Shown: one piece after another, positions 30,795 through 46,386 of the stretch
How the letters are laid out: each line of letters opens with the position of its first letter
How positions within the stretch are numbered: the stretch's first letter is position 1
Origin: Algoriphagus pacificus
Lineage (GTDB): Bacteria > Bacteroidota > Bacteroidia > Cytophagales > Cyclobacteriaceae
Direction of reading: 5' to 3'
DNA length: 64,000 bases
Assembly: GCF_017254845.1 (NCBI RefSeq)
Contig: NZ_JAFKCU010000002.1
Location: forward strand, 1,287,053-1,351,052
Translations under genes and position numbers: made by a program
Notes under the pieces: generated by a model
What the model was told of the DNA's origin: nothing
Seen by the model: the letters and a program-made list of their open reading frames with translations, nothing else
Databases searched by the model: none

Positions 30795-31745
30795 ATGCAT
30801 CTAGAAAGATTTTTAAGTGCACTTACCAAGCTTAAAAGAGGCTCAACACCCTATGGACTTGCTCCGCATAAGCCCATATTATTGTTGACGATTCTAGATT
30901 TGATGGATAGGGGATATATCACAGAAAACAAAATCTTTATTAATGGAGAACTTGTTTCAGCCTTTCATGAAAGCTGGGATTTGCTAGCTTCAGATGGCTT
31001 TGTTGAAGACTTCACTCTTCCATTTTATCACCTACAGAATGATAAAATCTGCGGTGTTGCTTTTTGGTTTTTAAAGACTTTTCCAGGATACAAAATAACC
31101 AAACCCATTAGAAGTATTAATACACTCTCAGAAGTAGTGGAATATGCCTGCTTTTCTGATATTATTTTTCAGATTTTTACTCACAAGGAAAATAGAGATG
31201 CTGTAAAATTGGAATTAGTCAAAACCTATTTTCCGAACATGATTGAATCATATTTTAGAGCAGATAGGGGACAAGGAAAATACTTGAAAGAAGTTCAGCA
31301 ATATGTTCTCAATGAAGTTCCTAAAGTTATGCGGTTAAGAGTAGCCGAGCCAGAAATGGAATATGTGAGGAATTGGACTTTTAAAAAGTTGGTACCGAAA
31401 GTTTATCAAAGTACTTGTGCTATTTCAGGAATGAAAGTGAGTACAACCAATGGAAGATTTCTGATTGATGCCTGCCATATTGTTCCTTTTTGTAGTACTC
31501 AAGATGATCGTGTCAGCAATGGAATTGCCCTTTGCCCAAACCTTCATCGAGCCTTTGATAGCGGACTTGTTTCTATAGATCAAGACTACCGAGTTTTGGT
31601 ATCAGACCAGGTAATTGAAGACCTAACACATCCTTATGGATTGGCAATATTAAAAGGCAGAAAAATTATTTTACCTAATGAAAAGCACCTATGGCCTAGT
31701 CAAGAGAACTTGGAAAGGCACAGAGAGGAGAGATTTTTCGATTGA
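30795..31745 (+). CDS. HNH restriction endonuclease, likely modified-DNA-dependent
   Basis: The 316-residue protein has an N-terminal domain with the segment YGLAPHKPILLLTILDLMDRG (residues about 20-40), much like the sulfur/modified-DNA recognition domain of ScoMcrA-type enzymes. A C-terminal HNH nuclease domain (about 205-290) has DACHIVPF with His228 and CPNLHRAFD with Asn249 and His251. This is the plan of type IV restriction endonucleases that cut phosphorothioated or otherwise modified DNA. It opens a run of defence-like genes and is closed by its own terminator. HNH identity is strong; the specificity is inferred from the N-terminal motif. Confidence 0.85.
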   Translation: MHLERFLSALTKLKRGSTPYGLAPHKPILLLTILDLMDRGYITENKIFINGELVSAFHESWDLLASDGFVEDFTLPFYHLQNDKICGVAFWFLKTFPGYKITKPIRSINTLSEVVEYACFSDIIFQIFTHKENRDAVKLELVKTYFPNMIESYFRADRGQGKYLKEVQQYVLNEVPKVMRLRVAEPEMEYVRNWTFKKLVPKVYQSTCAISGMKVSTTNGRFLIDACHIVPFCSTQDDRVSNGIALCPNLHRAFDSGLVSIDQDYRVLVSDQVIEDLTHPYGLAILKGRKIILPNEKHLWPSQENLERHREERFFD

Positions 31746-31775
31746 AGGTGTACATCTATAGCTCTTAAAACAAAA

Positions 31776-31802
31776 GGCCCCTATAAGGGGGCCAATTCTT
31801 TT
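31776..31802 (+). terminator. Intrinsic terminator after HNH gene
   Basis: GGCCCC and GGGGCC form a 6-base GC stem with a 6-base loop, followed by a T-rich tail and preceded by an A-rich stretch that makes it bidirectional. Confidence 0.75.
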
Positions 31803-31997
31803 ATCTGATTACGTTCCATTTCTGAAAGAGGCTTGATCAGACCTAACAGTACAAATATACGTGAATTATTTAACTTAGTAACATAATGGTTTGCTTTTCT
31901 AAAGAAATGCAAAGTGAAATAATAAATCTGGCTAGGTATTCTAGGAAATCCTAACCTGTTGATTGAGGTTTCTGATTAAGAATGATATACCAAACGA

Positions 31998-32678
31998 ATG
32001 AAAACTATTCTTAGAAATAAATACTTATCTAGGGCTAGATATAATAGATACCTATTAGCAACAGGCAATAATCTTGTGGCCGCTAAACGCTTATATCAAG
32101 CCAATATGAGATTAGCCCAGGCATTTCATCCCTTGCTAAGTCAGTTTGAGGTGATTTTTCGAAATAGTTTGAATGAAGTCCTTATTTCTAATTTTTCGGA
32201 TTCAGATTGGATAATAAATCAAAAAACTGGTTTTATGTCAGACACCTCATTGAGAACTTCTCACTTTTTTCTGAAAACTTGTTTAGTGAAAACAGAGAGA
32301 AAACTTCACCAAAGAGGGATTCCAATCACATCTGGAAAGATAATTGCTGATCAAACTTTTGGGTTTTGGGTTTCATTTTTTCTTCCTCATCATTATGGCT
32401 TGGTGTCAGGCAGTCCCATCCATGTCTTCCCACTTAAGCTAGCTTCTGAGAATAGGGCATCAATCCATGTCAAATTAGAAACCCTAAAGAATTTTCGGAA
32501 TAGGGTAAACCATTGTGAACCACTTTGTTTTTCAGGTCATTCTATTGACTGTACAGAGGCACTTCAGATTAGGACAGTTTTGTATGATCTTTTAGATTGG
32601 ATAAATCCGGAGTTACACAAATTTTTCAAAGATTTTGATAATATAACGTCCAATTGTAATAGAATTTCATCCATTTAA
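31998..32678 (+). CDS. Abi-like (abortive infection) protein
   Basis: The 226-residue protein matches the Abi_2/Abi-like plan. An N-terminal helical region (YLSRARYNRYLLATGNNLVAAKRLYQANMRLA) is followed by a segment FEVIFRNSLNEVL, a FGFWVSFF box and the conserved C-terminal FRNRVNHCEP. The last contains Arg167-x4-His172, the R-x(4-6)-H signature of HEPN ribonucleases. Such proteins act in phage-induced dormancy or in toxin-antitoxin pairs. No obvious antitoxin is next to it; broken DUF559 copies follow directly. Family call is good; RNase activity is inferred from the motif. Confidence 0.8.
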   Translation: MKTILRNKYLSRARYNRYLLATGNNLVAAKRLYQANMRLAQAFHPLLSQFEVIFRNSLNEVLISNFSDSDWIINQKTGFMSDTSLRTSHFFLKTCLVKTERKLHQRGIPITSGKIIADQTFGFWVSFFLPHHYGLVSGSPIHVFPLKLASENRASIHVKLETLKNFRNRVNHCEPLCFSGHSIDCTEALQIRTVLYDLLDWINPELHKFFKDFDNITSNCNRISSI

Positions 32679-32679
32679 T

Positions 32680-33258
32680 TTGCTTTACTCCTCCAACCTC
32701 TTCTACGGAGCCCCAGCTGCCACACTCCAAAAAGCCAAAGAGCTGAGGAAATCCATGACCCTAGCCGAAAGAAAGCTTTGGGCCGTTCTTCAAAAAAGTC
32801 AACTGGATGGCTATAAGTTTCGTGGACTTCCTCACCCTAGCCCTCTCCTTCAGGAGAGGGAATTTGATCCTGCTTGCATTAAGGTATTTACTTCAAAATC
32901 ACTTTCTGATTATATTAATTAGTAAATGTCCTACTCATCCAATCTTTTCTACGGAGCTTTAGCTACCACACTCCAAAAAGCCAAAGAGCTGAGAAAATCC
33001 ATGACCCTAGCCGAAAGAAAGCTTTGAGCCGTTCTTCAAAACAGACAATTAGATGGTTATAAGTTTCGTCGACTTCCTCACCCTAGCCCTCTCCTTCAGG
33101 AGAGGGAATTTGATCCTGCTTGCATTATGTTATTTACTTCAAAATCACTTTCTGATTATATTAATTAGTAAATGACCTACTCCTCCAACCTCTTTTATGG
33201 AGCCCCAGCTACCACACTCCAAAAAGCCAAAGAGCTAAGGAAACCCATAAAAGCTTTC
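32680..33258 (+). pseudogene. Three tandem broken copies of a DUF559 endonuclease gene start
   Basis: Three copies of the 5' end of a DUF559 (Vsr/PD-(D/E)xK-like) gene follow one another with an exact period of 246 bases; TTCTACGGAG-type anchors are at 32701, 32947 and 33193. Copy 1 reads SSNLFYGAPAATLQKAKELRKS, then MTLAERKLWAVLQKS, then runs into a family C repeat (CCTCACCCTAGCCCTC) and stops at 32922. Copy 2 (ATG 32926) has a TGA where copy 1 has TGG. Copy 3 (ATG 33172) ends after about 28 codons. All lack the catalytic half. The gene is dead here, and its 3' part lies further on at about 33463-33612. Confidence 0.7.
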
Positions 33259-33462
33259 GAAAGCATTAAGTTAATATTTATATGTCTACTCTATTATTAA
33301 TAATTTAATCGGATCATCTTTTTGAGGCGGGTGGGAATGTCGCGCCAGCGAGCCCAGCGATGGATTGAGGGCTGAAGCTTTGGCGGCGACAAAGGCTTTT
33401 GCCAACTTTTGAAGTTGGGATAGATTAAGTATATCATTTAGTGATTTGTTTTTAGCATAAAG

Positions 33463-33612
33463 TCATTTTAAAGATAAAGATCTTAACAGAGATCAAGTGA
33501 TCCAGGAATTTGGTATTCGGATATTAAGAATCAAGAATGAGGAAGTGATGGCGGTCCCGACAACTGTACGGGATAGGAGAGGTGATTAGGCAGATAAAAG
33601 GATTTCTGGTTT
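33463..33612 (+). pseudogene. Detached C-terminal fragment of a DUF559 endonuclease
   Basis: The frame reads DQVIQEFGIRILRIKNEEVMA, the usual end of the DUF559 catalytic core (helix, then LRIKNEEV). It is then broken by an insert with CCCGACAACTGTACGGGA and resumes in another frame with EVIRQIKGFLV and a stop. It is the missing 3' part of the gene whose 5' copies lie at 32680-33258. The interruption by a family C repeat shows such elements insert into genes. Confidence 0.65.
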
Positions 33613-34240
33613 GAGTCACCTCACCCTAACTCCCGATACGCTGTGCTCCCGAATCGCATTGTTCTCGGGATTGAAATATCGGGACAGGCTCTCTCCTTTA
33701 GAGCCTTTCCCGCACACTTGCGGGAAGAGGGCATTTGATCCTTCAAAAAAGAAGGAGTCCGTCCTATTAGCATAATCGTCCTTAGTTGCTCCGTATTTCT
33801 GACCTCATTATTCCACTTTTAGAAGAATCGATCGCCTCCTCTTTCAGGGAGAGCCTGTCCCGATAACGCAGTGTATCGGGAAGGAGGGAGGAGGCCCAAA
33901 AATACCCAGTACTGGGTATTTTTTTGTATCCAAAATTCCTTTTCTTGCAGATGTCTTTTAGTTATTGAAAACGAAGATCCCGGGAGCTTGGCTAAGAATT
34001 GAAGATTCAAGGACATGCGATCTGGGAACGCCCCACCAACGCACTTATTACCCTTGATCTCTCATTTGGAGCAGAGCCGATCTCTCTCTCCTAAAGGAGA
34101 GGGAGGGGTGAGGTAGAACACCCTTCCGGGCTTAAATCCGGAATCCACCAAACACCATTTGATACTGATATCTTGATGATAGCACAAACGATGACACTCT
34201 CTCCCGACCACTTTACGGGTCAGTATACTCCCAATTGTTC
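33600..34240. repeat. Family C repeat cluster
   Basis: The gene-free stretch 33613-34299 is a patchwork of palindromic phrases: CTCACCCTAACTCCCGATAC, TCCCGAATCG...TCTCGGGA, TTCCCGCACACTTGCGGGAA, TCCCGATAACGCAGTGTATCGGGA, CTCTCTCCTAAAGGAGAGGG and CCCGACCACTTTACGGGT. The stretch 33259-33462 before the DUF559 fragment has a GC-rich patch but nothing I can name. Confidence 0.65.
33900..33925. terminator. Perfect 22-base palindrome with T tract
   Basis: AAATACCCAGT / ACTGGGTATTT is a perfect palindrome without a loop spacer, followed by TTTT. As RNA it would make a terminator-like hairpin. A relaxed copy (ATACCCTGTACTGGG) is near 27865, so it is part of the family C repeats and may serve no gene directly. 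Confidence 0.5.
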
Positions 34241-34299
34241 ATAGCTGTGTCCGTTAACACTAATTTTTAATCCAAGACAACTAAATAAATTTTAACAAA

Positions 34300-34812
34300 A
34301 TGGCAAAATTCAATTTTCAAAACTTAGACAGTAAAACGAGACAATTAATGCTATCAGAAATTAATTCTGATATTGAACAGTACCGCCTTTATTTGAGTGA
34401 CAGGCTTAATTCAACCGGACGAGATAATTATGTGACATATTTAATTAAGTCCGTCATGGAAGGAGATGAAAGTATGTTAGAAAGTATGTTAGACATTAAC
34501 ACACATTTCAACCCGACATATTTGAGACAAGGCAATCCTGTAAAAATGCCTTCTAATGCATCAACTTTGCTTAGCCAAAGCGAGTTCAATCGTTATTATA
34601 TCAGGGCAATTTGTTTGAGAGCAGTTAATACTGGCATTGAAGCCGTTCAAATTTACCGTGCTAGAGAATCAAGTTGGACACGACCTGAATCAGAAGCAAA
34701 AATCGGAAGTCTCATTTCATCTGCTGAACTACTTGAAGACTTAAGAAATTCAATTGGGACAGAGCCCAAGCTTTTCCCTGATATTAATTCAGGTCTTAGT
34801 GTTAAACTTTAA
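34300..34812 (+). CDS. Hypothetical protein of a possible two-gene defence unit
   Basis: I do not recognise this 170-residue protein. It is soluble and helical, with no signal peptide or membrane helix. The N-terminal LDSKTRQLMLSEINSDIEQ and the middle SQSEFNRYYIRAICLRAV helices are its most regular parts, and the residues before the C-terminus are rich in Glu and Ser. A zinc-ribbon gene follows after 9 bases and is probably cotranscribed. Repeats lie on both sides. Its place between Abi/DUF559 and DUF4062 genes suggests a defence or mobile role, but that is context only. Confidence 0.6.
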   Translation: MAKFNFQNLDSKTRQLMLSEINSDIEQYRLYLSDRLNSTGRDNYVTYLIKSVMEGDESMLESMLDINTHFNPTYLRQGNPVKMPSNASTLLSQSEFNRYYIRAICLRAVNTGIEAVQIYRARESSWTRPESEAKIGSLISSAELLEDLRNSIGTEPKLFPDINSGLSVKL

Positions 34813-34821
34813 ATACGTATC

Positions 34822-35025
34822 ATGACAATTTCAACTTCAAAATGTCCGCACTGCCAAAAATCGGGATTTGAAGCAGTTACAGAAGAGCCTAAAGGTTCAA
34901 ATTTTAAAATAATTTTCATACGTTGTCAATTGTGTAAGACGGTTGTTGGGACTTTAGAGTATTACAATAGTGGTTCCTTGATACACAAGCTTGCAAAAAA
35001 ATTGAACATCAATTTAGATTACTAA
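34822..35025 (+). CDS. Small zinc-ribbon protein
   Basis: The 67-residue protein has two CxxC pairs, Cys8-P-H-Cys11 and Cys35-Q-L-Cys38, separated by 23 residues. This is the pattern of a zinc ribbon that may bind nucleic acid or protein. Nine bases separate it from the preceding 170-residue gene, so the two form a likely operon. No further domain is present, and the C-terminal tail is basic. Confidence 0.6.
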   Translation: MTISTSKCPHCQKSGFEAVTEEPKGSNFKIIFIRCQLCKTVVGTLEYYNSGSLIHKLAKKLNINLDY

Positions 35026-35059
35026 AAAAGTACTGCTAACAACTAGGTTTTCGTCGCGT

Positions 35060-35270
35060 GCGTAGCACGAGCGATGAAACTCTTCCAAAAGGAGAGCCTG
35101 CCCCGGTAGAGCATCGTATCGGGAAGAAGGCCGGGGATGATGAAGAACAACCAACTCACTTCTTGACCTTCATCTCCATCTGAAGTAGAGCCGATCACCC
35201 TCTCTCTTTCAGGAGAGGAAGGGTTGAGGTCAGGGTGGAATTACAAATTCCACCAGGTCCAAAAGACAAT
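35060..35270. repeat. Family C repeats
   Basis: The stretch 35026-35323 has no gene and holds CCGGTAGAGCATCGTATCGGG, a CTCTCTCTTTCAGGAGAGG hairpin with GGTTGAGGTCAGGG, and GGAATTACAAATTCC. The same phrases occur at 27.8 and 33.6-34.2 kb. Confidence 0.5.
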
Positions 35271-35323
35271 TTGACGACTCCCAGAAGTTGAAAAAACATT
35301 TTGGTTAAAAAAAAATAAGATAA

Positions 35324-35941
35324 ATGGCAGCACCTCGTAACCATATAAAAGTATTTGTAGCTTCTACAATTTATAACTTCCAACCGGAATTGAATAAGAT
35401 ATATGAATTGTTAGATGGGTTTGGCTATGATGTACACAATTCGCATAAAGGAACATTTTTAATTGACAGTAGCGAATCTAATCTTCAAAACTGCATCGAA
35501 AGCGTAAACGAATGTGATGTATTTGTGGGTTTTATAAGACCCGATTATGGTTCGGGAGTTTTAGAAAGAGGTGGTAAATCAATTACTCACCTTGAATTTG
35601 AAACGGCCGTAGCAAGAAAAATACCTCGCTTTTTAATGGCAGATTACCGGGTGACCTTTACTCGATCATTGATTCGAAAGGCAACATTAGATATCCCTTC
35701 ATTAGGAGTTCATTTTAATGTGGAATCTTCTAATATTAATTTCAATGACAACAAGATTATGGATATTCGTTGTGTCCAGCTATATGAAGAAATGATAAAG
35801 GATAAAATTCCACCATTAAAAAGAAAAGGTAATTGGGTTCAAGAATACGTGAACCTAGATGATATTAGGCTGCATTTGGATAGTCAATTTAAATATCCAG
35901 AGCGTATAAAATCATTAATGGATAAAATCAGCAAGTTATGA
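35324..35941 (+). CDS. DUF4062 domain protein
   Basis: The 205-residue protein opens with HIKVFVASTIYNFQPELNKI and continues with CDVFVGFIRPDYGSG (about 64-78) and SITHLEFETAVARKIPRFLM (about 87-106). This is the DUF4062 pattern: a Rossmann-like fold related to TIR and nucleoside deoxyribosyltransferase domains, with a conserved Glu in the last block. It ends in a 4-base overlap (ATGA) with the AlbA_2/HATPase gene, so the two are translationally coupled. DUF4062 proteins are frequent in anti-phage contexts as sensors or NAD/nucleotide-handling effectors. That role is inferred here. Confidence 0.8.
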   Translation: MAAPRNHIKVFVASTIYNFQPELNKIYELLDGFGYDVHNSHKGTFLIDSSESNLQNCIESVNECDVFVGFIRPDYGSGVLERGGKSITHLEFETAVARKIPRFLMADYRVTFTRSLIRKATLDIPSLGVHFNVESSNINFNDNKIMDIRCVQLYEEMIKDKIPPLKRKGNWVQEYVNLDDIRLHLDSQFKYPERIKSLMDKISKL

Positions 35942-37338
35942 ACAGAACAGTTTCATTTATAGCTGAATTAATTCAGCAAAAAGAGAGCATACAAATTGAA
36001 TTTGTAGGAGAATACAAGGTGTCTCAAATTTTGAAAGTGATTTGTTCATTCTTAAATACAGAAGGTGGATGGGTTTTAGTTGGCTATGATGGCAAAGAAT
36101 TCAGAGGTATTTCCGGAGGCATAGAAAATAAAGTATCGGAGCTCAAAAATTTAATTTTTGACCAGATTTTCCCACAACCATTGGTAGATGTTCGGTTTGA
36201 GAAATATAAAAGCCTAGATGTATTGCTTATCAACGTAATCAAAGGCTCTCGACAACCTTACACCTATGAGAAGAAATATTTCGTCAGAAAAGGTAGACAG
36301 ACACAAGAGGCAACGACGGATGAAATAAGTTTGTTACTAAGAACTTCAAATGAGTATGCCTCAACTTGGGAAAAACAAACTGCTATTGATGCTACTTTAG
36401 AAGACTTGGTTCAAAATGAGATTGAACTCACCATAAGCGATGCGAATAAAATTGGGAGAGGAAAAAGTTTGCCAAATGATATGTCTGGCTTTTTAAGCTA
36501 TTTTCAGCTGGTAGATATGAGTTTAATAAGAAATGGAAGTATTGTATTGTTTGGCAAAGATCCTGTGAAATTCATTTCCCAATGTCAAATTCGTATAACC
36601 CTGATGCCCCACGGAAAAACGGGGAGTAGGTTTGACGATACCGTTTTAATTGAAGATAATTTATTTGCGGCTTTTAACCGTATTGAAGAATACTTTACTC
36701 GAAATCTGCCAATGATAAGTGAGTTTAAATACGATAAATGGAATAGAAAGAATGAAGAAAAATATCCAATGGATGCATTGCGAGAGGCGGTGCTAAATGC
36801 GATGGTTCACAGGGATTATGCTGACATTTCAGGCGATATTACTATCAATATTTATCCTGACAAAATGGAAATCATTAATTCAGGAGAAATACCCCCTGAT
36901 ATTATTTCAGGTAAGAACAATATCAAAGAGCATCATTCTGTGCTTCGCAATCCAACTATTGCACATTTGTTTTATTTAAGGGGTAAGATTGAAAAACTAG
37001 GAAGAGGTTTGAGTTTGATTAAAGATAGATTCGTTGAAAATGGGTTGAAAGTTCCTGAATGGACTTCACAAAGCGGATATACTACACTTACTCTTTATGG
37101 ATTTTCGAAACCCATAGGAGTAAATGACAGAATGTTAACCTTTATGAAAAAACTTAAAGTTGGAGAACAGTTTTCTAGAGAAGATTTTGAACGGTTTTTT
37201 GAGAGTAATATTTCTGAAAAAACGGCAAGGAATGACATTGGAAAATTGATGGAAGGTAGGTGGGTGGAAAGAATAGGAGAAGGACCCTCAACCAAATACG
37301 TTAGAACTAATAAAGAATTACCGGAAATTACCGGATAA
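35938..37338 (+). CDS. AlbA_2 (Schlafen-like) plus HATPase domain protein
   Basis: The 466-residue protein begins with an AlbA_2 domain at about residues 10-125 (ESIQIEFVGEYKVSQILKVI, then CSFLNTEGGWVLVGYDG). A RecG-like HATPase_c_4 domain is at about 275-370; its N-box is REAVLNAMVHRDY with Glu283 and Asn287, followed by MEIINSGEIPPDI and GRGLSLI. A winged helix closes it (about 400-460, FSREDFERFFESNISEKTARNDI). Similar proteins are annotated as ATP-binding or putative DNA-binding regulators. Coupling to DUF4062 suggests one functional unit, perhaps sensor plus nuclease/ATPase. No helicase motifs are present. Confidence 0.82.
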   Translation: MNRTVSFIAELIQQKESIQIEFVGEYKVSQILKVICSFLNTEGGWVLVGYDGKEFRGISGGIENKVSELKNLIFDQIFPQPLVDVRFEKYKSLDVLLINVIKGSRQPYTYEKKYFVRKGRQTQEATTDEISLLLRTSNEYASTWEKQTAIDATLEDLVQNEIELTISDANKIGRGKSLPNDMSGFLSYFQLVDMSLIRNGSIVLFGKDPVKFISQCQIRITLMPHGKTGSRFDDTVLIEDNLFAAFNRIEEYFTRNLPMISEFKYDKWNRKNEEKYPMDALREAVLNAMVHRDYADISGDITINIYPDKMEIINSGEIPPDIISGKNNIKEHHSVLRNPTIAHLFYLRGKIEKLGRGLSLIKDRFVENGLKVPEWTSQSGYTTLTLYGFSKPIGVNDRMLTFMKKLKVGEQFSREDFERFFESNISEKTARNDIGKLMEGRWVERIGEGPSTKYVRTNKELPEITG

Positions 37339-37528
37339 CACATTTTCAAATAGAATTATGCTTGATTTTCAATTATTTAAACCCTTTTCACAACCTGACA
37401 CCATACCGGAAATTACCGGAAAGCTTTAAATAGTTGCCATATGAAATTACCGGACTTACCGGATTTAGAAAAGAAAGAGCCTGATAATGAAATATTTATG
37501 GATAGGCGAATTGCCGGGCTTTGCCGGA
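37317..37528 (+). repeat. Paired ATTACCGGA direct repeats
   Basis: Eight 8-9-base words close to ATTACCGGA occur as four pairs at about 37317/37327, 37403/37412, 37446/37455 and 37510/37520. Members of a pair are 9-10 bases apart. The first pair overlaps the end of the AlbA_2/HATPase gene; the others lie in the gene-free stretch 37339-37725. They look iteron-like, or are the worn remains of a repetitive C-terminal coding segment. Beyond them I see nothing up to the next gene. Confidence 0.6.
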
Positions 37529-37725
37529 AGCTAATTTGGAAGTCCCAACTAGCTTCAGACAACATCATTGGTTCTGGAAGGTTACTACGCCGAGTGGAGT
37601 GAGGTAATAAAATTAATTACAAATTGTGAAAGGATTTTAGGCTGAAATACAAATCCCACCAAATCAACATGAGTGGGAAATAGCAAAAAAAATAAAATTG
37701 CATCCATTAACGGCCGCCAGTAAAT

Positions 37726-38646
37726 ATGCGTGATACTAATTTTAAATCTACGGGTATAATAGAAAGATCAGACAGATTAGAGTTACATTATTTTTTTAAA
37801 GATGAAAGTCATTCAATTGACTCAATTCTAAGAAATGAATGTGAAAAGGAAATACTTTTCATATTTAAGGAAATCTCTGATACTTTAAAGTTAGATCTAA
37901 GATTAGAGACTTCGCCTCCAGAAGATGGTGGTTTTAAAGAAATATGGAATTTTATTGGTAAAAACTCTGCTCAAATATCATTGTTAGTTAGTGTTGCAGC
38001 AATAATTATATCTCGCTTTCCGACAGAAAATAGAGAATTAACTAAACTTCAAATCGAGAACTTAAAGCTGGATAATGAGCTAAAAAGCAAAGAATTGGAA
38101 AAGCTAAATTTAAAGGCTTTAAAAGAGGAAGATGAATTAATCCAGGATAAATTAATAGGGTCTGTTGAGCTGGTTAATAAAAACTATCGAATCGCATGGC
38201 GTAAATCCAATTTTTATAAAAAACTCTTTGGTTATAATAAACTCGATTCTATTGAAATCTTGAGATTTAAAGCCAATGAACCAGTAGGAAAAAAGAGGGA
38301 AGTCTTAAGGAATGATTTTAAAAATTATATTTTAGATAGCGATGATTTACCACCATTATCAGTTGAAAAAGCTGTCATTGACGTAATTTCACCAGCGATA
38401 AAAAGAGGGAGATTCAAGTGGAAAGGCTTCTATAACAATGAGATAATAAGTTTTGATATGAATGACTCCATATTCAGGCAACAGGTCTTAAAGGGGGATG
38501 TTCACTTTTCAAACAAGTTTTCGATTGAGGTAGAGATGACTCAAGAAAGAAAAATAAATCAAGATGGTGGAATAAAAATAACAAACACTTCAATTACTAA
38601 AGTTTGGGCTTCTGTCGAGAATGGAAATAGAATTGAATACAAGTAG
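37726..38646 (+). CDS. Membrane-associated coiled-coil protein, unknown function
   Basis: The 306-residue protein has an N-terminal soluble part of about 75 residues and a hydrophobic helix at about 82-98 (SAQISLLVSVAAIIIS). A long charged coiled coil follows at about 100-142 (ELTKLQIENLKLDNELKSKELEKL), then a C-terminal domain of about 160 residues. I know no family name. It lies between the DUF4062 pair and the type I restriction operon. A helix followed by a coil and a soluble domain would fit a membrane-tethered sensor or effector of a defence unit; that is inference only. Confidence 0.6.
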   Translation: MRDTNFKSTGIIERSDRLELHYFFKDESHSIDSILRNECEKEILFIFKEISDTLKLDLRLETSPPEDGGFKEIWNFIGKNSAQISLLVSVAAIIISRFPTENRELTKLQIENLKLDNELKSKELEKLNLKALKEEDELIQDKLIGSVELVNKNYRIAWRKSNFYKKLFGYNKLDSIEILRFKANEPVGKKREVLRNDFKNYILDSDDLPPLSVEKAVIDVISPAIKRGRFKWKGFYNNEIISFDMNDSIFRQQVLKGDVHFSNKFSIEVEMTQERKINQDGGIKITNTSITKVWASVENGNRIEYK

Positions 38647-38943: not shown

Positions 38944-40743
38944 ATGCAAAACTTTAGAGAAAAAGCTGACCTCATTTGGAAAGTTGCTGACTTGCTAAGA
39001 GGTGATTACAAACAATCGGACTACGGTAAGGTGATTTTACCAATGACTGTTTTAAGAAGGCTGGATTGTGTCTTAGCCCCCAACAAACAAAAAGTACTTG
39101 ACTACTTGCCAAAAGTAGCTTCCTTGAAAGAAAGTGCCAGAGATTTAACCCTTAACAAAATAGCAGGCAACAACTTTCACAACAGAAGTAAATTCGACTT
39201 TGAAAAGCTAAAAGCGGATTCAGACAATATCGCTGTTAACCTCCGTAACTACATAAACGGCTTCTCAACCAGTGCCAGAGAGATTATAGAATACTTCAAC
39301 TTCGATGACCAAATCGACCGTTTGGACGACCCAAAAACAGATTTGCTATACAAAGTCGTAAAGGAGTTTGAAGCAATTGATTTAACAGATATGGACACCA
39401 TGCAAATGGGGTATGTATTTGAAGAGTTGATTAGAAAGTTTGCTGAACAATCCAACGAAACGGCAGGAGAACACTTTACTCCTAGAGAAGTCATTCGTTT
39501 GATGGTGAATATCCTTTTCAATGAAGATAAAGAAATACTAACCAAAGACGGTGTTGTAAAAACAGTTTACGACCCTGCATGCGGTACAGGAGGCATGCTC
39601 TCCGTTGCTGAAACATATTTGAACGAACTGAACAGCAAAGCCAAACTGGAAGTTTTTGGTCAAGAAATAAACCCTGAGTCTTACGCCATCTGCAAATCAG
39701 ACATGTTGATTAAAGGACAAAACCCAAGCAACATCAAGTTTGGCAACACTTTTACTGTTGATGGTTTAGAAGAAGAGAAATTTGATTATATGCTCTCTAA
39801 CCCTCCTTTTGGCGTGGATTGGAAAAAGGCTTCCAAAATCATCAATGACGAGGCTACCAACAAAGGTTTTGCAGGACGTTTTGGTGCAGGTACACCAAGA
39901 ATCAATGATGGTTCTTTCCTTTTCCTACAACATATGATTTCTAAAATGAAATCAAACGGAAGCCGAATAGGGATTGTCTTCAATGGTTCTCCCCTGTTTT
40001 CAGGAGCTGCCGAAAGTGGAGAAAGCAACATCCGAAAATGGATTATAGAAAATGATTGGTTGGAAGCAGTGATTGCCCTGCCTGACCTATTGTTTTATAA
40101 CACTGGTATTTCCACTTATATCTGGATCGTAACCAACAAGAAAAACGAAGAACGAAAGGGGAAAATCCAACTCATCAACGCCACTGGTGAAAAAGACGAA
40201 GAATTGCTTAAAGAGGGAAAAATTAAATTCAACCGCTTTTGGGAGAAAATGCAAAAGAGCTTGGGCAACAAGCGAAAACAAGTTGCCGAAAACGGAAACA
40301 CAAAAGGCATTGGCTTCATTACCAAACTTTATGGCGACTTTGAAGAAAACGATTTCTGCAAAATTGTACCTAATGAATTCTTTGGCTATTGGAGAGTAAC
40401 CGTTGAGCAGCCACTCAAAGAAAATGGAGAAACGGTAACTGATAAAAAAGGTAATCCTAAACCTGATACCTCATTGCGTGATTATGAGAACATTCCATTT
40501 CTGCAAAAAGATACTGATGGCAAACTCGTGCCTCAAACCATTGAAGAATATATTGACCGTGATGTAAAACCTCATTTACCAGAAGCATGGGTAGATGAAA
40601 ACAAAACCAAGATTGGTTATGAAATCAATTTCACTAAGTACTTCTATGAGTTCAAATCACTACGCCCATTGAGTGATATCAAAGCTCAGATTTTAGCATT
40701 GGAAGAGTCGATTGTGGAAGCTGAAAAAACGGTATTAGACTAA
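38944..40743 (+). CDS. hsdM: Type I restriction-modification methyltransferase subunit
   Basis: The 599-residue N6-adenine methyltransferase has an N-terminal helical domain (about 1-160), then the catalytic domain with the SAM motif DPACGTGG at 210-217 and the active-site NPPF at 286-289. It methylates the site read by HsdS and forms the M2S1 core of the complex. The stop overlaps the hsdS start by one base (TAATG), showing coupling. The C-terminal extension of about 150 residues (FLQKDTDGKLVPQTIEEYIDRDVKPHLPEAW) is usual in this HsdM subgroup. The host DNA should carry its methyl mark. Confidence 0.96.
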   Translation: MQNFREKADLIWKVADLLRGDYKQSDYGKVILPMTVLRRLDCVLAPNKQKVLDYLPKVASLKESARDLTLNKIAGNNFHNRSKFDFEKLKADSDNIAVNLRNYINGFSTSAREIIEYFNFDDQIDRLDDPKTDLLYKVVKEFEAIDLTDMDTMQMGYVFEELIRKFAEQSNETAGEHFTPREVIRLMVNILFNEDKEILTKDGVVKTVYDPACGTGGMLSVAETYLNELNSKAKLEVFGQEINPESYAICKSDMLIKGQNPSNIKFGNTFTVDGLEEEKFDYMLSNPPFGVDWKKASKIINDEATNKGFAGRFGAGTPRINDGSFLFLQHMISKMKSNGSRIGIVFNGSPLFSGAAESGESNIRKWIIENDWLEAVIALPDLLFYNTGISTYIWIVTNKKNEERKGKIQLINATGEKDEELLKEGKIKFNRFWEKMQKSLGNKRKQVAENGNTKGIGFITKLYGDFEENDFCKIVPNEFFGYWRVTVEQPLKENGETVTDKKGNPKPDTSLRDYENIPFLQKDTDGKLVPQTIEEYIDRDVKPHLPEAWVDENKTKIGYEINFTKYFYEFKSLRPLSDIKAQILALEESIVEAEKTVLD

Positions 40744-42077
40744 TGGAAAGATACTCGGAATATAAAGAAACAGGCATTGAGTGGATAGGAGAAATTCCAA
40801 ATGATTGGACTGTCAAGAAAATCAAGCATAAGTGTTCGGTAAAAGCTCGTGTTGGTTGGAAAGGTCTAAAATCTGATGAATTTCTTATTAAAGGATATTC
40901 ATATCTCGTGACAGGTTCTGATTTTAAACGAGACACTGTTGTATGGGAATATTGTTATCAAATAGACCAAGAAAGGTATGAAGAAGACCCTTATATTCAA
41001 CTACAGGAAGAAGACCTTTTAATTACAAAAGATGGAACAATTGGAAAACTAGCAATTGTAAAAAACCTGGATAAACCAGCCTGTTTGAATAGTGGAATTT
41101 TTGTAGTTAGACCCACAGAGGACGATTTTACAACTAAGTATTTGTTTTGGTTACTTAAATCGAAAGCGTTTTCTCAGTTCAATGATTACACATCTTATGG
41201 TTCTACAATACAGCATTTATATCAGAATGTATTTGTGGAATTTTGGTTTCCTTTTCCAACATTGGAGGTTCAAACCCAAATCGCCAACTACCTCGATACC
41301 AAAACTGCCGAAATAGACAACATCATAGCTGCCAAGAAAAAACTCATTGCACTATATGAAGAAGAAAAAGCAGCCGTCATCAACCATGCGGTAACCAAAG
41401 GCATCAACCCAGATGTAAATCTAAAACCATCTGGTGTGGATTGGTTGGGGGATATTCCTGTTAATTGGATTGTAAGCGGGCTAAAATACGTGACTAAAGA
41501 AATGATTTCTGGACCTTTTGGCTCCTCATTAAAAAAAGAAACTTATACCAAAACAGGGTATAAGATATATGGTCAAGAACAAGTAATTAAGGGTGATGTC
41601 AATTATGGAGATTATTACATCGCTGAAGAGAAGTACCAAGAAATGCTTAGATACAAAGTTTCAGCAAAAGACATTCTGATCAGTTGTGTTGGAACTTTTG
41701 GGAAGATTCTTCAGGTTCCTACAAAATTTCAAGAAGGAATTATTAATCCGAGATTAATTAAAATATCTCTTAATGAAGATAGAATTGACCCAGATTATCT
41801 TGAAAGAGTTCTGAAAAGCAAGCTCGTATTTGATCAACTAGAAGCGTTAAGTAGAGGAGGAACTATGGGGGTGATTAACCTGGATTTACTAAAGCAATTA
41901 GTCATACCACTACCTCCGCTTAAAGAGCAAAAACCTATTTGTGATTTTATCACCCATGAAGAAGGTAGATTAAACAATCTCATTTCAAAAGCGAAACAAT
42001 TAATTGTATTACTAACCGAATACCGCACCACTCTTATCAGTGAAGTGGTAACTGGTAAAATAAAAGTAACAGCTTAA
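40743..42077 (+). CDS. hsdS: Type I restriction-modification specificity subunit
   Basis: The 444-residue protein has two target-recognition domains, each opened by a matching phrase: GIEWIGEIPNDW at about residue 10 and GVDWLGDIPVNW at about 231. Each is closed by a conserved helix (IANYLDTKTAEIDNIIAAKKKLIALYEEEKAAVI at about 178-213 and a similar one near 400-440). The two domains read the two halves of a split DNA site, so the site is bipartite with unlike halves. No truncation or inverted second hsdS was seen nearby, so phase variation by inversion is not indicated. Confidence 0.95.
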   Translation: MERYSEYKETGIEWIGEIPNDWTVKKIKHKCSVKARVGWKGLKSDEFLIKGYSYLVTGSDFKRDTVVWEYCYQIDQERYEEDPYIQLQEEDLLITKDGTIGKLAIVKNLDKPACLNSGIFVVRPTEDDFTTKYLFWLLKSKAFSQFNDYTSYGSTIQHLYQNVFVEFWFPFPTLEVQTQIANYLDTKTAEIDNIIAAKKKLIALYEEEKAAVINHAVTKGINPDVNLKPSGVDWLGDIPVNWIVSGLKYVTKEMISGPFGSSLKKETYTKTGYKIYGQEQVIKGDVNYGDYYIAEEKYQEMLRYKVSAKDILISCVGTFGKILQVPTKFQEGIINPRLIKISLNEDRIDPDYLERVLKSKLVFDQLEALSRGGTMGVINLDLLKQLVIPLPPLKEQKPICDFITHEEGRLNNLISKAKQLIVLLTEYRTTLISEVVTGKIKVTA

Positions 42078-42079
42078 CT

Positions 42080-42415
42080 ATGGGCGATTTATTAAATAGC
42101 GACAAAGTGCAGGATTCCTTTTATGCAGTAGCTAGTTTCTTAGAATCTGCCCAAAAGGACAAAATGAATCGAACTGAATTCGTTTGTAATTTTAAGGTAC
42201 TTCATCCTGCACTACAGCGGTTTCAAGACAAAATTGAGTTTGAGTGTAGAGACTATCTAAATAATCCCTCCTACATTTTATATTCTGACTCATTTAAGGG
42301 ATTAGGATATCACCGTCCGGTCTGGAGTTCATACTCACTCTTCATTTGGGATGAGAATACGAAAGAATTGTCAGTGAACCTTAACGATAAAACATTCATC
42401 ATAAAACATCAATAA
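42080..42415 (+). CDS. 111-residue protein inside the type I operon, unknown function
   Basis: It starts 2 bases after the hsdS stop and ends directly before the start of the Ntn-hydrolase-like gene (no gap). The protein is soluble, with a helical first half (FYAVASFLESAQKDKMNRTEFV, VLHPALQRFQDKIEFECRDYL) and a strand-rich end (YSLFIWDENTKELSVNLNDKTFIIK). No known family comes to mind. Its tight packing means it is made together with the hydrolase; it could be a partner, inhibitor or substrate adaptor. I cannot tell which. Composition is like its neighbours. Confidence 0.75.
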   Translation: MGDLLNSDKVQDSFYAVASFLESAQKDKMNRTEFVCNFKVLHPALQRFQDKIEFECRDYLNNPSYILYSDSFKGLGYHRPVWSSYSLFIWDENTKELSVNLNDKTFIIKHQ

Positions 42416-43402
42416 ATGACACTCTGCGTAGCATGGATAAGACAAGTTGAGGATACTGAAGAATTAGTATTTGCAACAGACAGTTGCCTCTCAGGTGGTG
42501 AGCGATGGCACTCTGGAGTTAAACTTTTCGAGTTACCCAGAAAAGATTGTTTAATCTGCTTTGCAGGAGAAACTACTAGAACCTATCCACTTATTCTCAA
42601 TCTAATTTCTTCTATCAAGTTTGATGAGCACCTTTCTAATCCTCATACCGATATTTCTGATGTATTGGAGTATTTGACTAATCTATTTTCTACGCTTTGC
42701 AATTCTATATCAGGTTTCGCACCTCAATCTTTTGAAGATGCTTTAGGTGATTTTCACTTCATGTTTGGTGGTTGGTCATGGAAATCAAATGAGTTTAAGG
42801 TTTGGAAGCTTTCCTATAATCATGATCTCAAAGCCTTTCTCCCGAATCAAGTAGGTAAGGAAAATATGTTCTTTGATTTCATTGGGGATGAAACAGAAAA
42901 AGCAGAAGAATTATTGATTGAGGAAATGTCAAAAAGCAAAAAGGTGCTTTCAAAAATTTTTGACATGGAACCATTCCGAGTATTATTAGAAATGATTCGG
43001 AAAAAGGAATATGACTCCATAGATGGAGCCATTCAAATAGCGAAAATCCACCCTCCTGGCATTACCGAGTTTTTTGGTGTGATGTGGCCTTCTATCAAAG
43101 GAAAAAAGACGTTTTTAGGAAAAGATGTGAATTTTGATAACAACCCAGCAGTAAAATTTTTAGACCCTGATACTTGTGAAATTATTGGTGATGATATACC
43201 TGTAAAAATCGAAGATCCATTGGAGGAGCTTTACGGAATCAACTTCGGCTTTGTAAAAGACTGCTATCCTGAAGGAAAAATAAAAACAGGATTAACCAAG
43301 CGTGAAAAACACACCTTGAAAACGATATTTAAAGAAGTGGCTTATGCTCAATTTATTGGAAAAGCTCTTTTGGAAGAACTTGAAAACTCAGAAGAAGCAT
43401 GA
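42416..43402 (+). CDS. HslV/proteasome-like Ntn hydrolase embedded in the type I operon
   Basis: The 328-residue protein opens with Met-Thr: removal of Met would expose Thr as an N-terminal nucleophile without a propeptide, as in HslV. Downstream lie FATDSCLSGG with Asp22 and SGVKLFEL with Lys36, then ICFAGETTRTYPL, which parallels the HslV order Thr1-Asp17-Lys33 followed by a GFAGGTADAF-like block. The first about 180 residues fit the beta-subunit fold; the remaining about 150 are extra. The gene abuts the 111-residue gene and overlaps hsdR by 4 bases (ATGA). A proteolytic or amidase role in the restriction complex is inferred. No HslU-like ATPase is encoded nearby. Confidence 0.7.
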   Translation: MTLCVAWIRQVEDTEELVFATDSCLSGGERWHSGVKLFELPRKDCLICFAGETTRTYPLILNLISSIKFDEHLSNPHTDISDVLEYLTNLFSTLCNSISGFAPQSFEDALGDFHFMFGGWSWKSNEFKVWKLSYNHDLKAFLPNQVGKENMFFDFIGDETEKAEELLIEEMSKSKKVLSKIFDMEPFRVLLEMIRKKEYDSIDGAIQIAKIHPPGITEFFGVMWPSIKGKKTFLGKDVNFDNNPAVKFLDPDTCEIIGDDIPVKIEDPLEELYGINFGFVKDCYPEGKIKTGLTKREKHTLKTIFKEVAYAQFIGKALLEELENSEEA

Positions 43403-46386
43403 GTATAACAACAGAAAACACATTTGAGTCGGCTATCATCCAAGCATTGGTTGCAAATGGTAGTTATCAAGAAGGGCAAGCGGCACAATACAGTACAGAA
43501 CTAGGCTTCTTCAAAGAAGACATACTGGCTTTTTTACAAACTACACAGCAAAAAAAATGGGAAAAGTTAGCCACTATACACGGAGCAGAAGTAAACAATA
43601 AAATTTTACAACGCCTCTACAAGGAAATGGATTTGAGGGGTAGTTTAGATGTACTCAGAAATGGATTTGTAGATTATGGAGTACGTTTTCAAATGGCATT
43701 TTTTAAACCTGCTTCTACGCTAAATCCAGATGCATCTGCTGTGTATGACCAAAACATTTTGAAAGTAGTTCGTCAGGTATATTACACCTCAAAAAACAAG
43801 AATTCCGTTGACTTGGTATTGGCTTTAAATGGTATTCCTGTTGCTACTCTAGAGTTAAAAAACCATTTCACTGGTCAATCCATCGAAAATGCTAAACGCC
43901 AGTATAACACCACAAGAGATAACAAAGAATTACTTTTTGCTTTCAAAAAGAGAGCTTTAGTACATTTTGCGGTAGATCAAGATGAGGTATTCATGGCAAC
44001 TAAAATTGATGGCGGTAACACCTATTGGCTTCCATTCAATAAAGGATTTAATAACGGCAAAGGAAACCCTCCAAATGAAGGAGACTACAGAACCGCCTAT
44101 CTCTGGGAGCGAATCTTGCAAAAAGATAGTTGGTTGGAAATCATTCAACGTTTTGTGCATTTGCAAACCGAAGAAATAGAAGTTGATGGCAGAACATTTA
44201 AAAAGGAAAAGCTCATTTTTCCAAGATATCATCAGTTAGATGTAGTCAGAGAGATCACAGCAAATGTTGCCACAGTTGGTGCTGGTCATAATTATTTGAT
44301 TCAACACTCAGCAGGTTCTGGGAAAAGCAATTCCATTGCATGGTTAGCGTACCGTTTGTCCAGTTTGCATAATGCGGTGGATGAAAAGGTGTTTAATAGT
44401 GTTATTGTAGTTACAGATAGAAAAGTCCTTGACCAACAATTACAAAAAACAATTTATCAGTTTGAACATAAAACAGGAGTTGTTCAGAAAATAGATGAAG
44501 ACAGTACCCAATTAGCTACCGCTATCACTCAGGGTGTAAATATTATCATTACAACCCTTCAAAAATTTCCGTTTGTAATTGACAAAGTTGCCGACTTACC
44601 CGAAAGAAAATATGCTGTCATCATAGATGAGGCACACAGTTCACAAGGAGGTGAAGCCAGTAAAAAGATGAAGGAAGTTTTGGCCTCCAAATCGTTAGAA
44701 GAAGCGGAACAAGAAGAAGCCGAGACAGACGACTATACTGCGGATGATTTTGTGAGGGAACAAGTTGAAAAATCAGCAGCTTCGAGAGGTCAGCAACCTA
44801 ACATCTCTTTTTTCGCATTTACAGCAACACCAAAATACAAAACCTTAAAAGTATTTGGTCGGGAAGATGCTGAAGGGAACCCAAGACCTTACCACTTATA
44901 TTCGATGCGTCAGGCAATCGAAGAAGGTTTTATTCTCAATGTGTTAGAAAACTACACTTCTTATGAGCTGTATTTTAAATTGAATAAAGCGATTGAAGAA
45001 GATCCAAAACTGAACAAAAAGAAAGCCTCAAGAGCGATCGGTCGTTTCGTTTCGCTTCATCCATATAACCTCTCTCAAAAAACAGAAATCATCATTGAGC
45101 ATTTCTGCCAGGTTGTCGCTAAGAAATTGGGAGGAAGAGCCAAAGCAATGGTTGTGACTGGTTCTAGACTACACGCAAAAAGATACTTTGAAGAATTTCA
45201 AGAATACATTTTTGAGAAGGGATATAATAAAGAGATTAAAGTTTTAGTCGCCTTCTCTGGTAAAGTTATTGACGACAACACACCTGATGGTGTTTCTGAG
45301 CCACAACTTACGGGTTACGGAACAAAGGAGCTACCACAAGTTTTTAATTCCGATGATTACAAAATCCTCATAGTTGCAGACAAGTATCAAACAGGCTTTG
45401 ACCAACCACTTTTGCATACCATGTATGTAGATAAAAAGCTGTCAGGCGTAAAAGCGGTACAAACACTTTCAAGGTTGAACAGAACAGCTCCAGGCAAGGA
45501 AGATACGTTTGTGTTAGATTTTGTAAATGACAGGGACACGATTTTTGAATCATTTCAGCCCTACTTTGAAATGACAACTGTTAAAGACGAAACAGAACTC
45601 AATCACCTGTATGACTTAAAAGCTAAACTTGACGAAGTTCAAATTTATTGGGATTCTGAAATCAATTCATTTGCCAACGTATACTTCAAGCCATCTACTA
45701 ATTTGAATGTACGTGACCAATCAAAACTCTATTCATTCATTGATCCTGCTGTGGATAGATACAGAGCAATCCAAGAGGAGGAGAAAAAAGAAGAATTCAA
45801 GAAGGCTATTAGAACATGGACAAACTTGTATTCATTCTTGGCTCAAATTATGCCTTTCAAAGATGTCGAATTTGAAAAATTCTATGCTTATGCCAAGCTG
45901 TTACAAACTAGGTTGCCAAAACGTGATTTAACTGAATCATTCCAATTGTCAGACGAAGTGGCTCTTGAGTATTATAGACTTCAAAAAGTAAAAGAAGGTT
46001 CTATTGACTTAATAACTGGAGAAAACGGTGAACTCAGCGGGATTTCAGAAGCAGGTCTTAAAAGACCGAAAGACGAAGAAGCCGCACTTTCTGAAATAAT
46101 AGAAGTTCTAAATGACCGATTTGGGACTGAATTTGAGGATGCGGACAAACTCTTCTTTGATCAAATAGAGTCCGAATTGATGGAAGATGAAACATTGCAA
46201 ATACAGGCAAAAGTGAACAAAATGGATACGTTCAAGTTCGCCTTTGAAGAAATGTTTATCAGCAAACTCATTGACAGAATGGAAGATAATCAGGACATAT
46301 TCGAAAGGATATTAGAAGACAAAGATTTCGGAGGTTTGGTGAAAGAAATAATGATGAAGAAAATTTATAAGCAAATGAATTCTTAA
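43399..46386 (+). CDS. hsdR: Type I restriction-modification endonuclease/translocase subunit
   Basis: The 995-residue protein has an N-terminal PD-(D/E)xK nuclease with Asp138 and Glu152-Leu-Lys154, then a superfamily 2 motor. Walker A is GSGKS at 306-310, Walker B is DEAH at 410-413, followed by FTATPK. The second RecA-like domain contains ADKYQTGFDQP and QTLSRLNRT. A C-terminal helical part binds the methylase core. It cuts unmethylated DNA after translocation. The nuclease and motor motifs are all present, so the system appears intact. The start overlaps the Ntn-hydrolase-like gene by 4 bases. Confidence 0.96.
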   Translation: MSITTENTFESAIIQALVANGSYQEGQAAQYSTELGFFKEDILAFLQTTQQKKWEKLATIHGAEVNNKILQRLYKEMDLRGSLDVLRNGFVDYGVRFQMAFFKPASTLNPDASAVYDQNILKVVRQVYYTSKNKNSVDLVLALNGIPVATLELKNHFTGQSIENAKRQYNTTRDNKELLFAFKKRALVHFAVDQDEVFMATKIDGGNTYWLPFNKGFNNGKGNPPNEGDYRTAYLWERILQKDSWLEIIQRFVHLQTEEIEVDGRTFKKEKLIFPRYHQLDVVREITANVATVGAGHNYLIQHSAGSGKSNSIAWLAYRLSSLHNAVDEKVFNSVIVVTDRKVLDQQLQKTIYQFEHKTGVVQKIDEDSTQLATAITQGVNIIITTLQKFPFVIDKVADLPERKYAVIIDEAHSSQGGEASKKMKEVLASKSLEEAEQEEAETDDYTADDFVREQVEKSAASRGQQPNISFFAFTATPKYKTLKVFGREDAEGNPRPYHLYSMRQAIEEGFILNVLENYTSYELYFKLNKAIEEDPKLNKKKASRAIGRFVSLHPYNLSQKTEIIIEHFCQVVAKKLGGRAKAMVVTGSRLHAKRYFEEFQEYIFEKGYNKEIKVLVAFSGKVIDDNTPDGVSEPQLTGYGTKELPQVFNSDDYKILIVADKYQTGFDQPLLHTMYVDKKLSGVKAVQTLSRLNRTAPGKEDTFVLDFVNDRDTIFESFQPYFEMTTVKDETELNHLYDLKAKLDEVQIYWDSEINSFANVYFKPSTNLNVRDQSKLYSFIDPAVDRYRAIQEEEKKEEFKKAIRTWTNLYSFLAQIMPFKDVEFEKFYAYAKLLQTRLPKRDLTESFQLSDEVALEYYRLQKVKEGSIDLITGENGELSGISEAGLKRPKDEEAALSEIIEVLNDRFGTEFEDADKLFFDQIESELMEDETLQIQAKVNKMDTFKFAFEEMFISKLIDRMEDNQDIFERILEDKDFGGLVKEIMMKKIYKQMNS

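Follow-up and report, generated by a model that had tools for sequence, protein, structure and literature searches.

Why should a type I restriction operon carry, between hsdS and hsdR, a gene whose product resembles a proteasome subunit? We addressed this question for a locus of Algoriphagus pacificus, within an analyzed stretch of 64,000 nucleotides (the window). The five operon genes lie on the + strand, i.e., hsdM for the type I modification subunit (38944..40743, 599 aa; Pfam N6_Mtase 1e-62, HsdM_N 4e-27; PADLOC MTase_I 1.5e-252), hsdS for the specificity subunit (40743..42077, 444 aa; Pfam Methylase_S 3.7e-25, in two stretches), a gene for a 111-aa accessory protein (42080..42415), a gene for a predicted proteasome-like Ntn hydrolase of 328 aa (42416..43402), and hsdR for the restriction/translocase subunit (43399..46386, 995 aa; Pfam HSDR_N, SWI2_SNF2, T1R_D3-like). 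hsdM and hsdS have one base in common, and the junctions between hsdS and the 111-aa gene, between the latter and the Ntn gene, and between the Ntn gene and hsdR measure 2, 0 and -4 bases, respectively. The coordinates, lengths and these three junctions agreed with a preliminary description of the locus.

Both Pfam and PADLOC recognized hsdM, hsdS and hsdR. For the 111-aa and 328-aa proteins, neither Pfam nor PADLOC had a family match at E up to 1; searches of both with NCBIfam, and of the 111-aa protein with PHROGs, gave noise-level matches only. The Ntn gene is present as a single copy in the A. pacificus genome. Its neighbors are the 111-aa gene and hsdR, and there is no unfoldase gene there, i.e., the operon lacks an HslU-like ATPase, as had been remarked before. 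Upstream of hsdM, window positions 30795-38646 form a defence-island-like neighborhood with an HNH_2 protein, an Abi_2 match below cut-off, a DUF4062 protein gene that overlaps a Schlafen/AlbA_2 protein gene, and a PDC-S42 protein matching LAPAL below threshold.

Fold and active site of the Ntn protein

The predicted structure of the 328-aa protein has the alpha-beta-beta-alpha fold of the proteasome, and upon superposition residue 2 of the model falls on residue 1 of active proteasome subunits. Among the structural matches listed, Anbu had the best Z score (19.2 over 204 aligned residues), level with archaeal beta subunits (19.1); in this alignment, Anbu is 14% identical to the window protein, and it has another gene context. 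HslV chains were not found among the best 50 structural (VIA) matches listed, which is no argument against kinship. A search of PDB sequences with the single Ntn protein gave no match, and the Ntn family profile gave one, an HslV (E 0.036), and no Anbu.

We compared the family with HslV by hhalign, using 27 of the 31 loci L052-L082, from which L063 was removed as out of register, leaving 26. In local mode, the alignment covered residues 16-67 and paired Asp22 with HslV Asp17 and Lys36 with HslV Lys33 (P 6e-4, probability only 28%); a reversed control gave P 0.18, and the global mode gave P 0.069. The case for an Ntn identity is built on the predicted fold. Four residues are invariant in all 35 aligned sequences, the window counted. 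These are Thr2 (codon 42419..42421), the predicted N-terminal nucleophile once Met is removed, Asp22 (42479..42481) and Lys36 (42521..42523), which by the hhalign pairing correspond to Asp17 and Lys33 of HslV and the proteasome, and Gly51 (42566..42568), which in the same alignment appears equivalent to proteasome Gly47 and is the likely oxyanion-hole glycine. Thr2 was also present in all 18 homologues (among 34) that do not match the N-terminal search pattern.

The predicted fold and the invariant residues thus bear out the proposal of a proteasome-like Ntn fold with a Thr/Asp/Lys site, and the claim that the 328-aa protein has no propeptide is upheld. None of the three points on which the preliminary description had made its proposal depend, i.e., an Ntn fold in structure prediction, conservation of Thr2, Asp22 and Lys36 in homologues, and occurrence in other hsd operons, went against the 328-aa gene. 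We take the protein for a proteasome-like Ntn hydrolase that is predicted to be catalytically competent and is most likely a peptidase. The suggested likeness to HslV stood in part. The Asp/Lys register and the lack of a propeptide are shared, and Asp17, Lys33 and the FAG-T-A block of HslV align with the window protein, but we rejected membership in HslV. The Ntn gene escapes PF00227, whose one match in the genome is a separate HslV elsewhere, and the window protein is larger than HslV, carries a C-terminal extension and has no HslU beside it.

A clade linked to type I operons

A pattern scan of a genome collection of 84,980 species yielded 40 Ntn loci, and in 25 of them hsd genes adjoin the Ntn match. 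Three of these 25 are fragments (L048, L050, L051). The other 22 (L012-L033) contain most of the Ntn gene or a gene running to the contig end, as in L032 and L033 with about the first 130 residues. In all 22 loci the Ntn gene lies downstream of hsdS, and hsdR follows in the 20 whose contig continues; in L032 and L033 the contig ends before hsdR. The gene therefore recurs at a conserved site in other hsd operons, as the preliminary description had expected. The order hsdM-hsdS-X-hsdR is found in the window and in 20 of the 22 loci, with hsdM visible in 19 and L029 starting inside hsdS; in L015, hsdS is split into two frames.

The immediate upstream neighbor of the Ntn gene is hsdS in 17 loci, ten of which show a 4-base overlap of the two genes, the 111-aa gene in three, and another gene in two (116 aa in L014, 381 aa in L012). 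Downstream, hsdR comes next in 13 loci, further cargo intervenes in seven (L017, L022-L025, L028, L030), and hsdR lies beyond the contig in two. Hosts of the hsd-linked sequences in our tree are Bacteroidota, Chloroflexota, Cyanobacteriota, Thermodesulfobacteriota and Pseudomonadota; L030, outside the tree, comes from a Nitrospirae MAG. Host assignment is tentative because several hsd-linked loci are MAGs.

The hsd-linked Ntn proteins form one clade with support 100/100, both with the extension columns (20 versus 22 rows) and without them (20 versus 19 rows, L005, L006 and L009 being excluded). L030, which has a stretch of N, was omitted from the A3 set, as were the fragments L032, L033, L048, L050 and L051. 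Only this clade has the C-terminal extension, which in the window comprises residues 259-328 (43190..43399) with two helices that the structure model places at residues 270-283 and 295-327. Alignment columns 265-323 are filled to 97-100% in all 20 hsd-linked rows and to 0-37% in all 15 solitary rows.

According to the available text of the respective papers, the EcoprrI operon has the order hsdM-hsdS-prrC-hsdR (PMC3014915), and PrrC is latent with the EcoprrI complex and becomes activated when Stp of phage T4 inhibits it (PMC3014915; PMC2610378). As far as these sources describe it, PrrC, like the window Ntn protein, is an enzyme that accompanies a type I system as an accessory and is encoded in the same slot. 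In contrast, PrrC is an ABC-ATPase/tRNase (anticodon nuclease), and the window protein has a predicted proteasome fold and no family match; its lack of a Pfam family and its fold rule out membership in the PrrC protein family. By this analogy, the best fit would be an accessory effector of the type I operon that sits in the PrrC slot and is held latent, docked on the enzyme; we give this reading about an even chance.

Other occupants, solitary relatives and divergence

A close HsdR is encoded in 68 of 395 Bacteroidota genomes and the Ntn protein in two, the window genome being one of the latter; a partial Ntn match in genome G259 (E 0.0097) was left uncounted. From 76 HsdR places we examined 40 stretches upstream of close hsdR genes, nine of them shortened by contig ends, and found the Ntn gene in one. 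Ten slot proteins from operons without Ntn comprised, by Pfam, two Fic proteins, an AAA_21 protein, an M78 peptidase, a DUF6602 and a DUF433 protein, one with a sub-threshold 23S IVP match, and three without any match. Four of the seven cargo regions between Ntn and hsdR contained, by Pfam, Schlafen, a SatD-like match (below cut-off) together with DUF3307, SIR2, and RhuM, respectively. As its occupants are many and unrelated, we conclude that the hsdS-hsdR slot is a general cargo site, with Ntn as one occupant. Miller et al. are said to have described in 2005 variable genes inside Campylobacter hsd operons as R-linked ORFs (rlo), which are alike in this respect; however, we know of no Ntn hydrolase among the rlo genes.

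Some operons showed further particularities. In L012 (3783-5552) and L017 (1973-3025), cargo also occurs between hsdM and hsdS, a second site that contains GmrSD and YhcG/DUF1016 nuclease genes. In the mutually related operons L100, L101, L102, L105, L106 and L107, a short HsdR-like ORF, perhaps a duplicated hsdR start, precedes a Schlafen-like gene just before hsdR. L023 (9008-10894) and L028 (9011-10897) have related 628-aa genes between Ntn and hsdR, with a SIR2-like domain in L023; operons of this type would hold two candidate effectors.

In 15 of the 40 loci, and likewise in eight plasmid and two viral-contig loci, we found no HsdM, HsdS, HsdR or 111-aa match in the flanking DNA, save a weak HsdM-like one in L038 (E 0.044); several of these stretches are short on one side. 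Solitary relatives occur on plasmids, prophages and chromosomes. A tblastn search of 50,697 phage records with the window Ntn protein found no relative, and a scan of viral contigs with this single protein gave no match; the alignment-based scan gave two prophage-type loci. In these (L131 6001-6840, L132 6001-6933), Ntn lies in a capsid/tail module between a phrog_6367 protein, a PHROG of unknown function, and the tail terminator, and the L131 protein is the same as that of Paracoccus locus L046. Prophage cargo or a role in the structural module are both possible, i.e., with two solitary relatives in prophage head-tail modules a phage structural role also fits. Other solitary copies lie near portal and terminase genes (L036) or an ArdC gene (L037), or adjoin an Mrr-type nuclease gene (L035) or a gene matching HEPN below threshold (L040). 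Most other solitary neighborhoods examined held no telling family, and neighbor clustering gave no recurrent partner, near-copies aside. In Escherichia coli CB6886, a truncated solitary copy (L011 9002-9577) adjoins an integrase; of 5,426 complete E. coli genomes, 126 cover at least 80% of the 2.5-kb query. The solitary relatives look like mobile-element cargo, and since they occur without hsd genes, the coupling in hsd operons may be genetic only.

In L051, hsdM, hsdS and hsdR are full-length and Ntn is reduced to a 25-codon remnant. This, together with the lack of Ntn from most operons with a close HsdR, speaks against the earlier notion of an indispensable subunit. In 19 operons, Ntn distances correlated with those of HsdM (Mantel r 0.40) and HsdR (0.41; p up to 0.0004), and hardly with those of HsdS (r 0.15, p 0.065). 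For comparison, HsdS correlated with HsdM and HsdR at r 0.55-0.60, and HsdM with HsdR at r 0.95. Partial correlations of Ntn were 0.04 to 0.10, and -0.10 for HsdS, but say little because HsdM and HsdR themselves correlate at 0.95. Tight co-divergence with the Hsd subunits was hence not found, the raw correlation being moderate and significant; Ntn tracks the restriction enzyme loosely. As Ntn follows HsdM and HsdR less than HsdS does, and hardly follows HsdS, an intimate complex is not implied.

These observations bear on whether the Ntn gene is independent defence cargo, i.e., a stand-alone anti-phage hydrolase that uses the slot for expression and transfer and is tied to the restriction enzyme neither physically nor by regulation. 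The many unrelated slot genes, the relatives on plasmids, prophages and chromosomes, the loose divergence pattern and the near loss of Ntn from the otherwise full L051 operon would all suit such cargo. Against it, the hsd-linked copies in the tree all fall into a single clade, and the C-terminal extension is exclusive to that clade. Moreover, in 20 of 22 loci Ntn has either hsdS or the 111-aa gene as its neighbor, also where further cargo precedes hsdR (seven loci), whereas free cargo should mix more. We consider independent cargo possible but rather unlikely.

In three operon pairs, HsdM/HsdR identities are 96/97, 98/96 and 91/91%, and Ntn identities are 46, 48 and 41%. In the pairs window/L020 and L013/L023, the DNA is conserved through hsdM and up to the middle of hsdS, and the second half of hsdS, which judging from its location is the second recognition domain, has been exchanged. 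Identity is 77-91% across the hsdS end and some 200 bases at the start of Ntn and 65% at best in the Ntn body, which has been exchanged as well; hsdR is conserved again. The exchange also takes in the 111-aa gene, which is absent from L020. In the pair L027/L031, nearly the whole hsdS differs. Ntn in hsd operons is dispensable, and its body diversifies fast while its active site does not.

This pattern speaks to a role in restriction control, in which the protease would degrade or clip HsdR or the translocating complex and so shield the host chromosome, doing locally what ClpXP does in restriction alleviation. That the gene belongs to the operon and is tightly coupled to its neighbors would agree with this, and the available text of PMC3874165 reports ClpXP control for types IA and IB, and none for type IC EcoR124I. 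However, a fixed substrate should keep the Ntn body conserved, and in window/L020 and L013/L023 it is largely unlike next to HsdR proteins of 96-97% identity; HsdR degradation is therefore disfavored. Most genomes with a close HsdR also lack Ntn (68 versus 2 of 395), the solitary relatives have no HsdR nearby, and the window operon has no unfoldase. We regard a control protease as improbable.

Genes for homologues of the 111-aa protein separate hsdS from Ntn in L016, L022 (the operon of L010) and L028, i.e., in three of 22 hsd-linked loci besides the window, and not in the remaining 19 of L012-L033. The gene that the preliminary description had called a partner is hence real, but the gene pair is no unit, and we rejected the 111-aa protein as obligate partner of Ntn. 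The 116-aa gene that L014 has in this position proved unrelated to the 111-aa gene. With a profile of the 111-aa protein, five of the 395 Bacteroidota genomes matched at E up to 0.01, two strongly and three weakly, and the two strong ones are the same two that have Ntn. An AF2 model from four sequences (pLDDT 76.7), of moderate quality, shows a small alpha+beta fold, for which Foldseek gave nothing at E<=0.001, with the CARM1 N-domain and PH domains as best weak matches. The 111-aa protein may be an optional adaptor in some Bacteroidota. As it is usually absent, its processing by Ntn, which had been proposed, is disfavored. A specific processing enzyme in general, i.e., a connectase-like ligase or single-site protease maturing a subunit or the 111-aa protein, has a precedent in connectase, a monomeric and highly specific ligase among proteasome homologues according to the available text of PMC8665760, but is very improbable in view of the 19 of 22 loci without a detected 111-aa gene and the lack of a recurrent neighbor of solitary copies beyond near-copies.

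Possible role in defence

The effector role is hence the one favored among the three functions put forward in the preliminary description, and HsdR degradation and 111-aa processing are not. The slot, the swaps and the L051 remnant favor a dispensable, diversifying, PrrC-like effector over an HsdR-regulating protease. A latent effector would fit best because Ntn occupies the PrrC slot, is dispensable, combines a fast-changing body with a constant active site, and has the extension only when hsd-linked. In its favor we also count the fold and active site, the single clade, the other slot genes, the moderate correlation with HsdM and HsdR, the solitary relatives on plasmids and prophages, and the EcoprrI precedent. 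Against it we count that Ntn follows HsdM and HsdR less closely than HsdS does, that relatives without hsd genes exist, two of them in prophage head-tail modules, and that Ntn is far rarer than the type I family in the Bacteroidota genomes.

For such an effector, methionine aminopeptidase would expose Thr2, and the C-terminal extension would dock the Ntn protein on the HsdM/S/R complex. The complex would keep it latent, perhaps by blocking ring assembly, which we consider because isolated proteasome subunits are inactive (PMC8665760, available text). Once phage anti-restriction neutralizes or rearranges the complex, the hydrolase would be freed, assemble, and cut host or phage proteins. It would thus act as a second defence line like PrrC, cutting protein instead of tRNA. 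The available text of PMC3014915 also describes Lit, a protease that stays latent and excludes phage T4 through cleavage of EF-Tu.

Fuchs, Alva and Lupas (2021) described 22 new uncharacterized proteasome homologues and, in the available part of their paper, state that the genomic context pointed to no particular function (PMC8665760). As described there, these proteins are prokaryotic like the window protein, with Thr1 (or Ser1)/Asp17/Lys33 and divergent C-termini, but had no telling context, whereas in the present family one clade goes with type I operons. The window family, set beside them by description alone, may be one of the 22 clusters. Among the literature matches listed, which comprise titles and abstract starts with bioRxiv and most subscription journals outside, we found no published report of a proteasome-like gene in an hsd operon.

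Many prokaryotic proteasome homologues lack a known role, and a clade tied to one slot provides a testable hypothesis. We tentatively propose, at somewhat less than even chances, that type I enzymes of several phyla carry a built-in latent suicide or counter-phage protease, docked by its extension, freed when a phage disarms restriction, and rapidly diversified in its substrate-facing body. If true, a proteasome homologue would, to our knowledge for the first time, have been assigned a defined role in bacterial immunity. The PrrC idea, i.e., a restriction enzyme guarding a latent killer, would then extend from tRNA cleavage to proteolysis, and other candidate effectors would be pointed to in the hsdS-hsdR slot.
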